Part shown: positions 1,464 to 53,508 of the stretch, in pieces
Position numbering within the stretch: position 1 is the stretch's first letter
Layout of the letters: each line of letters starts with the position of its first letter
Assembly: GCF_003430825.1 (NCBI RefSeq)
Contig: NZ_CP024047.1
Span: 2,418,001 to 2,482,000, forward strand
Origin: Natrarchaeobaculum sulfurireducens
GTDB taxonomy: Archaea > Halobacteriota > Halobacteria > Halobacteriales > Natrialbaceae
DNA length: 64,000 nt
Direction of reading: 5' to 3'
Position numbers and translations under genes: made by a program
Notes under the pieces: model-generated
What the model saw: the letters and a program-made list of their open reading frames with translations, nothing else
Database searches by the model: none
What the model was told of the DNA's origin: nothing

Positions 1464-2015
1464 ATGATAGCTCTCTCAATGTATGGCCCAACATGCAATT
1501 CCGACTATAATTCTGCCTATGCACTTGTTTCTTGGACATTTGATGGAACTCCTCTGTGCGGCCATAGCCCAAGTCTGGCGGCTAATGATCGAATTGGACT
1601 CACGTACAAAGAGGGAGCTTGGTACGTTCCTGACGGTGTTGATGGGACATGGATGTCTGACGACGTATCGGTTTCAGCTGAGGATTACAACGAGAACGGT
1701 ATTGCCTGTTCGTTTGATGATGGCTCCGTGGACGATTACTGTGATGCTGGTGAAACATGGTATTTCGCAGCCCCGCTTAAAGAGGCGGACAGCGGTTTTG
1801 AGCCTGGGTCTCGTCAAGTCTGGGCGGTCTATAGTCACTTAGACGAACAAAAAGCGGGCGGATCAGTAACGATCTCATTCGGATCGTTAGGTTATACATC
1901 AGCAAATAATCCAGAGGCATGGCAAAGACACAGGGACGATGATGGAGACCAGCTTACTGCAACTGATCAGGATGAAGAGGATATTTGTGGTGGTCCATAC
2001 AATAAGATATATTAG
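1464..2015 (+). CDS. Orphan hypothetical protein in AT-rich islet
   Basis: 183 residues, not recognised. It is acidic and rich in Trp, Tyr and Gly, with at least six Cys (for example TCNSD, LCGHS, IACSFDD, DYCDAG, EDICGG), suggesting an extracellular protein with disulfides, although no signal peptide follows the ATG. The true start may lie elsewhere: a short frame at 1412-1510 ending in a YDSSLNVWPNMQF peptide precedes it in another frame, so an older, longer gene may have been broken here. Base composition is visibly lower in GC than both flanking genes, as is the next gene, which points to recent acquisition. Function unknown. Confidence 0.55.
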   Translation: MIALSMYGPTCNSDYNSAYALVSWTFDGTPLCGHSPSLAANDRIGLTYKEGAWYVPDGVDGTWMSDDVSVSAEDYNENGIACSFDDGSVDDYCDAGETWYFAAPLKEADSGFEPGSRQVWAVYSHLDEQKAGGSVTISFGSLGYTSANNPEAWQRHRDDDGDQLTATDQDEEDICGGPYNKIY

Positions 2016-38380: not shown

Positions 38381-38904
38381 CTTTATGAAAGGGTCACACC
38401 AGTAGGTCAAAAGAGCGTCGGCCGAACCGATCCAAGCTACGACTCCGGAACATCCCTTCCGTTCCGTCCTGAAACGCACGTAATCCCACACGTGCGAAGG
38501 ATCAAAGGTCCCGTTCGAGTAGCGAATTTCTGCTCACCTGGCGAGACAAAACTGACGGCTAGCGGTCGTGTTCCAGGGGCTCTCGAGGGAGATGGCCATC
38601 AGATGCTTGATCCCGAGCTCGCAGCGACGAGCTGTGAAAGAGACTCGAGAGCGATCTGATAGCGTTTTCAAGCGCATACCTGCGTCTTCAGGCGCAGATC
38701 GAGCGGTAGGCCCGACGCAGCATCCACACCAGTGGCCGGACCGGATTTCGTTTGCAATCTTTTTGCTGTGGTCCGACGTAACATAGAGTGCTACGGATTC
38801 GGTGAGATGCCGGCCCCGAACCACAAGGGGCGGTGGACCAGCGGTGGTTCACTCGGCAATGACACGGAATCCGATGGGGTCTGGTTGACCGGGCCACAGC
38901 CCTA
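38381..38904. other. Long gap without a clear gene
   Basis: Open frames here have no recognisable domain or signal. Plus-strand frames end close to the hairpin array that follows (a short peptide ECYGFGEMPAPNHKGRW near 38790-38840), which might be the decayed 3' end of a transposase-type gene, but the match to TnpB is from memory of the family style and not certain. Confidence 0.35.
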
Positions 38905-39089
38905 GACAGGGGAGGAAACGAGAGTTCCTCCGGTATCAAGCGAGAGCCAAGCTCTCGCGGACCGTCGGAAGACTGTGTCTTCCGAGATGCTGCCGGTTCC
39001 CCTTGAGTGCGGGTTGGAACCTTGAACGCCACACTCGGCGGAAATCCGATGGCCGGATTCCACGTCCTTCAGGGCGTGGAGGAGGTCAA
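38905..39089 (+). ncRNA. Candidate structured RNA or TnpB right-end (omega RNA-like) remnant
   Basis: Five hairpins in 185 bp: GGAGGAA/TTCCTCC (38911-38931), GCGAGAGC-CAA-GCTCTCGC (38940-38958), TCGGAAGAC-TGT-GTCTTCCGA (38965-38985), GGTTCC/GGAACC (38995-39021) and CCACGTCC-TTCA-GGGCGTGG (39060-39079), followed by AGGAGGTCAA. All stems are perfect or have one G-U pair. The last hairpin and GTCAA tail look like the right end of haloarchaeal IS1341/IS605-type elements, whose TnpB uses an RNA made from this region as guide. No intact tnpB is upstream. Either a leftover of such an element or an independent structured RNA. Confidence 0.5.
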
Positions 39090-39190
39090 GCGTGGTTCGT
39101 CCCACTCGGCACGGAATACAAGCTCGAGAACCAAAAACGTGAGAAAGGGCCACCCACCTGTAGCTTGACCAGCCGTAGTTTGGCCGATAA

Positions 39191-52263: not shown

Positions 52264-52283
52264 CCCCGGGTCAAGCCCCGGGG
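52264..52283. repeat. Right-end hairpin of the tnpB element
   Basis: CCCCGGG-TCAAG-CCCCGGGG, which overlaps the last codons and stop of tnpB. This arrangement, CDS ending inside a stem that continues into the right end, is the rule for haloarchaeal IS1341-type elements and marks the 3' part of the guide RNA. Confidence 0.7.
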
Positions 52284-53508
52284 CTTCCTGCTTCAACGAC
52301 GCGCTTTGCATCCACAGCCTCTCGCTGAGGTGTGAACGTAGGGAGCGCAGTCTGCACAGGCGTTGATTCGGACTGTCCCAGCCCTAACTGCCGCAATCCA
52401 CGAGTGAGAATATTCTTCGCCGCATTCAAATCACGATCCTCTTCGTGGCCGCACGCCGGACACGAGTGCTCACGTACCCAGATCGGCTTATCCGTCTCGA
52501 CACCACAAACTGAACACTCTTTCGTCGTCCCACGAGGTTCGACCGTTTCGACGTGCGTGCCGTGCAACTCGCCTTTGTACTCCAACAGCTCGATGAACCG
52601 CGACCACGCCGCATCCTGCTTGTTTTTGGCGTTCTGGCTGGTTTCCAGCATCGGCTTCACGTCCAAATCCTCGACGGCCACCACGTCGTACTCTTGGACG
52701 AGCCACGTCGTCAGCTTGTGCTGGAAATCTTCGATCTTCCGCTTGATTTTCCGTTTGACTCGCGCCACCTGTTGGCGTTGTTTCTCCCAGTTGTTGGAGC
52801 CGTGTTCTTTCTGGGCGAGTTTCCGCTGCTCGCGTGCGTAGCGGTCGTACTCGTCCGACAGGTCGAGCGTTTCCACGGAGAGGTTTTCTGACGTGTGGAT
52901 GTAGCTGGTGATGCCGAGGTCAACGCCCACGCAGCCCTCGGCTTCGATCTCGCTTAGTGACGGTTTCTCGGATGTGCCTTCGACGGTGGTGACGAGCGAG
53001 ACGTACCACTCGCCCGTCGACTCCTTTTTGAGGATGATTTCGTCAATCTCGTCTTTGGATGGCACGTCGCGGTCTGCGCGGATTTTGAACCAGCCGATCT
53101 TTTCGAGTCGGAGTCGCACGAATCGGTCGTCGCCCGTGTTGTGATCCACGTTCCAGCGACGGGGTTGATTGTACGACACTGACCGAAACTCACCACGACC
53201 TTGCCACTTTAGCCGCCCGACGTTGTAGCCGTTTTCTCGCCGTCCTTTCAAGGTTTCCAGATCGCTGTGGATTTGGGTGATGGCTTGTTGTGCGGCGTGT
53301 CGGAGGGTTCTGCGAAGGTCGGCCATTGGTCTGCCCACCCGGTGAGTTTGTTATGTTGGTCGTAGTCGGATGGCTGGTTGTTGGAGTCGGAGTTGTAGTA
53401 GTCTCGAACGGCGTGGTTGCGGATTTGGCGGAGGATGTCGATGTGGTGCCACGCTTCGCTCTCCACGTCATCGGACAGGTACGCCGGGAAGCGAAGCGTG
53501 TGTTTCAT
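52271..53508 (-). pseudogene. tnpB: tnpB (IS1341-type RNA-guided nuclease), frameshifted
   Basis: Read from ATG 53508: MKHTLRFPAYLSDDVESEAW to WADQWPTFAE, then the reading frame shifts near 53303-53308 (GGAGGG run) and continues as LRHAAQQAITQIHSDLE to the end. A single missing base explains it; together about 410 residues, the normal TnpB length. All nuclease parts are intact: RuvC Asp in CVGVDLG, Glu in VAVEDLD, Asp in EEDRDLNAAKN, and the zinc ribbon CSVCG/CPACG. So inactivation, if real, is recent; a sequencing error or recoding would restore a full protein. Confidence 0.85.

Follow-up and report, generated by a model that had tools for sequence, protein, structure and literature searches.

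A transposase-free mobile element of Natrarchaeobaculum sulfurireducens carries a scaffold homologous to TnpB guide RNAs

Results

The locus and its hairpins

The window analyzed here is a stretch of 64,000 nucleotides of the N. sulfurireducens genome (NZ_CP024047.1, positions 2,418,001 to 2,482,000), and all coordinates refer to it unless another contig is named. In the original prediction, positions 38905-39089 of the plus strand were singled out as a gene-free array of five hairpins. All five stems were found exactly within these positions: GGAGGAA (38911) with TTCCTCC (38925), GCGAGAGC (38940) with GCTCTCGC (38951), TCGGAAGAC (38965) with GTCTTCCGA (38977), GGTTCC (38995) with GGAACC (39016), and CCACGTCC (39060) with GGGCGTGG (39072), followed by AGGAGGTCAA at 39080-39089. 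A stretch of 231 nt folds at -107.4 kcal/mol versus -90.8 ± 4.8 kcal/mol in shuffled sequences (z -3.5), with one of 200 shuffles folding as well. The hairpins are thus real, but the boundaries were drawn too narrowly, the element extending from 38661 to 39089. The array is likewise present, but its hairpins at 38940 and 38965 form an optional 52-nt insert that is missing from most relatives. The GGTTCC/GGAACC stem pairs in 99% of the sequences, but it shows zero covariation and overlaps a better supported alternative, in which a CCGG.../...CCGG hairpin covaries between copies and a long-range stem, CAGCCC/GGGTTG, covaries between PATEs (see below) and tnpB elements. The absence of a gene from the block was borne out by substitutions without codon-position bias.

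Boundaries, target site and mobility of the element

When the region was compared with its own genome and 60 relatives, matches ended sharply at 39089 and the homologous block began at 38671. The copies can be aligned from the left-end hairpin CTGCGTCTTCAGGCGCAG (38680-38697) through ...GGAGGTCAA, and the right end of the element reads ...GGTCAA. Because TGATA lies about 10 nt upstream of the aligned copies in nearly all cases, the start was placed directly after TGAT (38657-38660), a TAM-like motif that also precedes tnpB elements, which gives a length of 429 bp on the plus strand. In 14 congeners, the two flanks of a sister copy from one relative (G114) directly adjoin each other at the TGAT junction; four congeners show this for a second sister copy (G145), two at 94-95%. 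From these empty sites it follows that insertion is precise, takes place after TGAT and leaves no target duplication. The flanks of the window copy itself were not found in other congeners. Near-identical copies occupy unrelated sites with unrelated flanks.

A fixed left target motif without target duplication (here TGAT and the sister-copy empty sites), near-terminal palindromes of the IS605 kind, and a length too short for a transposase, with neither tnpA nor tnpB, are the properties of palindrome-associated transposable elements (PATEs). We are therefore all but certain that 38661-39089 is a complete PATE, a non-autonomous member of the IS200/IS605 group. The loci closest to it gave no TnpB match, and the tnpB genes of its own genome are located elsewhere.

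Some copies carry further insertions. The copy L014 is interrupted at 304-1425 by a 1.1-kb insertion with a transposase-like ORF of 332 aa, which explains an apparent longer version of the PATE. In L019, a sequence of ~52 bp inserted within the PATE (inside 1501-1800, minus strand) resembles a reversed, terminal-only IS605 end and is reminiscent of the terminal-only elements of 52 bp known from Haloquadratum. The right flank of the window copy (39092-39117) resembles, with two gaps, the PATE 5' domain at 38844-38871 (GTGGTT..CACTCGG..CACGGAAT), a likeness noted post hoc and equalled by two of 1000 shuffles. The window PATE may have inserted next to the relic of another copy, or the likeness may be due to chance.

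Relationship to autonomous IS200/IS605 elements

The left end of the PATE (38671-38711) is common to tnpA- and tnpB-bearing elements, seven IS605-type elements being 83-93% identical to it over 41-43 bp. TnpB-encoding elements of 1.65-1.83 kb, four of which also encode TnpA, share these first 41-43 bp as well as the last 49-88 bp; the tail had thus been read correctly as the right end of an IS1341/IS605 element. The own genome contains three Y1 TnpA genes, one of them within an element with a matching left end, and the window PATE is probably mobilized in trans by the TnpA of such a related element, as judged from these ends.

One TnpA- and TnpB-encoding transposon of the own genome, L065, has its left end, target site and scaffold in common with the window PATE. 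Only its left end (~C3:2896274) was matched by blastn; the right end was recovered by a covariance model, with the scaffold at G000:C3:2894443-2894589. Its TnpA carries DHVHLF, and its TnpB carries GVDIG, LEDL and HADINAA, with the RuvC D-E-D set retained as judged by eye. A different partner, the TnpB gene at 52-53.5 kb, had been proposed at first. This gene (52271-53338, minus strand, a 355-aa ORF) has a different right end, CCCCGGGGCTTGACCCGGGG, which does not belong to the scaffold family studied here. It was rejected as the partner, and is an unlikely one, since neither of the covariance models described below matches a scaffold at its 3' end. L065 is the better candidate.

A conserved RNA structure on the plus strand

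A structure of 71 pairs was drawn from the alignment of PATE copies. Over 28 non-redundant copies 97.1% of its pairs are kept, a figure favoured by the structure having been drawn from the alignment under test, while partners that were slid out of register paired in 35-45% of cases. The doubly changed pairs are the stronger evidence, with 20 observed versus 11.4 ± 1.9 in shuffles and a covariation of 0.218 versus 0.123, which none of 500 shuffles equalled. After removal of the pairs with a G-U majority, 62 G-U cells were counted versus 28 A-C cells, the relatedness of copies being ignored, and this excess identifies the plus strand as the structured one.

The 3' part of the structure begins with TTGACC (38885-38890), which pairs with GGTCAA at the very right end of the element (39084-39089). 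This helix (helix 5) is paired in 98.8% of cases and hardly varies; its position and the analogy with the guide RNA of ISDra2, more than covariation, suggest a closing helix or pseudoknot. Within it lies a long-range stem formed by CAGCCCTAG (38897-38905) and GTGCGGGTTG (39007-39016), which reads CAGCCC/GGGTTG in PATEs versus CAAGAC/GTCTTG in tnpB elements and hence covaries as a whole stem. It is followed at 39041-39080 by the hairpin AAATCCG..CGGATT and the right-end hairpin (helices 12 and 13), the latter with covariation of its own. The scaffolds of PATEs and tnpB elements share this anatomy, that is, TTGACC/GGTCAA, the long-range stem, a variable hairpin, AAATCC..GGATT and the right-end hairpin.

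Homology to TnpB guide RNAs

Two covariance models were built, R1 from 16 tnpB-less copies, with the window and all tnpB elements left out, and R2 from nine tnpB elements only. R1 matched the window at 5e-38 and gave full-length matches to the 3' ends of tnpB elements at 4e-17 to 1e-6; R2 matched all PATEs that were searched and, at 2.7e-16, the window. Since R1 matches were used to set the extents of the R2 training rows, the two models do not provide fully independent tests; the evidence from Rfam is independent. At the gathering threshold Rfam gave no match in the window. In a permissive scan of the block, HgcC (RF00062) matched at 6e-6 with 33.3 bits, below its gathering cut-off of 50, and sot0042 (RF02656) at 0.0087 with 19.2 bits, below its cut-off of 88. 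The tnpB locus L129 of the own genome is a true Rfam sot0042, with 119 bits against the cut-off of 88, at the place where R1 matches. ARAGORN found no tRNA.

We are thus highly confident that the 3' part of the window element (38885-39089, plus strand) is homologous to the omegaRNA (sotRNA) of TnpB. Like an omegaRNA, it is homologous to the scaffolds found at the 3' ends of tnpB, and it has a right-end hairpin and a pseudoknot between the element end and the 5' side, the closing helix of which barely covaries. It overlaps no tnpB in cis, the locus being devoid of one, and was for this reason classed as working like an omegaRNA and not as a standard sotRNA. The suggestion that the block might be a TnpB guide RNA separated from its tnpB is supported by these reciprocal matches, and the proposed covariance search and comparison with tnpB right ends showed the scaffold to exist both linked to tnpB and alone.

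A conserved protein was considered as another source of the conservation, as a long open frame runs across many copies and contains LTGPQ, also found in TnpB C-termini. It was ruled out by the lack of codon-position bias, with zero third-position excess among substitutions (in counts that ignore the relatedness of copies), and by the 52-nt insert, which breaks the frame. The peptide-like echo in PATEs is explained by L065, where the C-terminal LTGPQD of TnpB is encoded by TTGACCGGCCCACAAGAC, the start of the scaffold.

The 5' domain, inserts and predicted guide

Upstream of the scaffold lies a second structured domain (38794-38873, plus strand, helices 1-4), which covaries and, among the fetched loci, occurs only in those without tnpB at the element. 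In the window its outer stem is formed by CGGATTCGGTG and CACGGAATCCG, and in other copies by CGAATACCGTG and CATGGTATTCG. A weak, TATA-like box, AATCTTTTTG (38756-38765), is a candidate promoter about 25 nt ahead of the conserved RNA region. The spacing of its T-run (38760-38764) is kept in most copies, with strong conservation starting ~25 nt later at 38786, and the run is possibly part of an archaeal promoter.

The optional 52-nt insert (38935-38986) places two hairpins in an apical loop and is absent from a 368-bp variant of the element. A different double-hairpin insert, of ~54-59 nt, precedes TTGACC in other copies, among them L002, the second copy of the own genome. Taken together, double-hairpin inserts of ~50-59 nt, each with two short stems and small loops, were seen at three positions in two PATE families: at 38935-38986 in the window, before TTGACC in L002, L047, L061, L062 and L082, and upstream in L142-L145, L148 and L149.

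By analogy with TnpB biology, the predicted guide is the flanking sequence GCGTGGTTCGTCCCAC (39090-39105, plus strand). Besides its own site, no site with 0-1 mismatch was found in the genome. With two mismatches there were 13 places versus three for the reversed control, which we take as no evidence of another target.

Copies and distribution

Of 125 genomes of the family, 84 contained related sequence. In the own genome R1 matched 20 places at E<1e-3, five at tnpB genes and 15 elsewhere, three of the latter decayed or deleted; tnpB-less scaffolds thus outnumber tnpB-linked ones in this RNA family. Ten of the 15 form a second tnpB-less PATE family (L141-L150) of ~460-513 bp that ends in an omegaRNA-like scaffold. 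Its members lie at G000:C3 349565, 1831527, 863248, 1935001, 2726749, 2223537, 2276475 and 118100 and at G000:C2 25228 and 65727. Three copies are 97-98% and six ~85% identical to L141, and the family was probably mobile recently, to judge from this similarity.

The neighbours of L002, a proline racemase and a helix-turn-helix protein, match the N. sulfurireducens plasmid pAArc-Mg-01. An exact core pattern was found in 46 stretches of GTDB species genomes, all labelled as haloarchaea or uncultured archaea and spread over many genera, and 27 plasmid records contained matches, mostly unannotated. No record of the phage collection matched.

Discussion

Comparison with known systems

Guide scaffolds without a nuclease gene are known from solo HEARO/IscB omegaRNA loci, which belong to the IscB lineage and to an unrelated RNA family. 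The PATEs of Haloquadratum walsbyi have been described either as mobile repeats of palindromic structure or as degenerate IS605 elements (Dyall-Smith et al. 2011, PMC3119063). As far as the parts of that description consulted here extend, they agree with the window element in being transposase-free, too short to code and without terminal inverted repeats or target duplication, and both have near-terminal, IS605-like palindromes; guide RNA, RNA structure or a TnpB partnership are not mentioned in those parts (PMC3119063). The sotRNAs of haloarchaea, including sot0042 (RF02656), have the same scaffold architecture, right-end hairpin and element-end pseudoknot as the window element (PMC8303175, PMC12558985). 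Those of the sot0042 type overlap the tnpB 3' end, whereas the window element lacks tnpB and has two additional parts, the 5' domain and the optional 52-nt insert. In the omegaRNA of ISDra2 TnpB, scaffold positions -6..-2 form a pseudoknot with -102..-106 (PMC10097598). As in the window element, the last scaffold nucleotides pair near the 5' end and the guide follows directly; ISDra2 differs in being bacterial and in having tnpB in cis and a scaffold of 116 nt (PMC10097598).

HgcC (RF00062) resembles the window element and the other PATEs chiefly in its terminal hairpins and AGGAGGUCA tail. It also matches the right ends of haloarchaeal tnpB elements below its cut-off, at best with ~41 bits (L071, L069, L067, L066, L070 and L024). 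These similarities suggest that HgcC may itself be an IS605-type omegaRNA; no paper linking HgcC with TnpB was found. Among the papers accessible without subscription, none was found that joins PATEs with TnpB guides. PATEs and omegaRNAs are each already known, and it is their combination that seems to be new, although this novelty is uncertain.

A gene-less element proposed to be served by two proteins in trans

The most plausible explanation, in which we have good confidence, is that the window element is a gene-less PATE that keeps its ends for a TnpA acting in trans, together with a complete TnpB scaffold and an RNA domain of its own. The TnpA of a related IS605 copy would excise the PATE as a single strand and insert it after TGAT. 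Haloarchaeal sotRNAs are processed out of tnpB mRNA (PMC8303175), so a tnpB-less copy needs a promoter of its own or read-through. We infer that a transcript of ~300 nt would begin inside the PATE and pass through the scaffold into the flanking DNA. The TnpB of a related element would then bind this RNA, with the first ~16 nt of the flank as guide, and cut the donor site left empty by excision (TGAT and the flank), whereupon repair from the sister chromosome would restore the PATE. The role given to TnpA draws on IS605 biology and the matching ends, and that of TnpB, from loading to cleavage in trans, is inferred from the conservation of the scaffold. On balance we lean towards the use of PATE RNA as a guide in trans.

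The TnpA of IS605 elements, as established for IS608 and ISDra2, reads hairpins in single-stranded DNA at both ends. The hairpins of the PATE, the ends of which are shared with tnpA elements, could accordingly serve TnpA only as single-stranded DNA during excision, strand choice and insertion, with the scaffold an inherited remnant without a guide role. Such hairpin reading could explain part of the conservation. We regard this as unlikely, though to be taken seriously, because covariation extends over 300 nt and includes internal helices far from the ends, a covarying domain is missing from tnpB elements, G-U exceeds A-C, and the tnpB-type architecture is kept in two separate PATE families of the genome. 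In the family of the window PATE, full-length tnpB-less copies with compensatory changes occur in many genera, and the earlier suggestion of a decayed relic is not upheld for this family.

An RNA that binds TnpB without productive cleavage, acting as a decoy or inhibitor that damps the TnpB of autonomous copies, would fit the greater number of solo than of tnpB-linked scaffolds, and TnpB might function differently in the presence of the additional 5' domain and the apical insert. The guide-proximal GGTCAA and the target motif are nevertheless intact, as for a working guide, and we consider a decoy improbable. Strong structure and wide distribution would also be expected of a stand-alone regulatory RNA of the host, domesticated from a transposon. 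The copies, however, lie at different sites with unrelated flanks and empty sites and form homogeneous multi-copy sets within genomes; the block belongs to a mobile element that possesses a left end and a fixed target motif. A host RNA, orphan or domesticated, is therefore very improbable.

Returning to the guide-in-trans reading, it is a realistic possibility, though slightly less likely than not, that PATEs of this kind represent a widespread class of protein-less transposons. These would express, from their own promoter, a two-domain guide RNA made up of a 5' domain of its own and a TnpB scaffold, and would parasitize in trans the TnpA of autonomous relatives for mobility and their TnpB for guided restoration upon excision. 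If this were true, the TnpB guide pool of a host would be larger than its number of tnpB genes. PATEs, of which haloarchaea have many, have been described as leftovers without a transposase. If their scaffolds are functional, TnpBs may receive most of their guides from elements without a tnpB gene (here 15 tnpB-less versus five tnpB-linked scaffolds), it would become directly testable how non-autonomous IS605 derivatives escape loss upon excision, and the TnpB field would gain naturally occurring guides that act in trans and tolerate an insertion in an apical loop.
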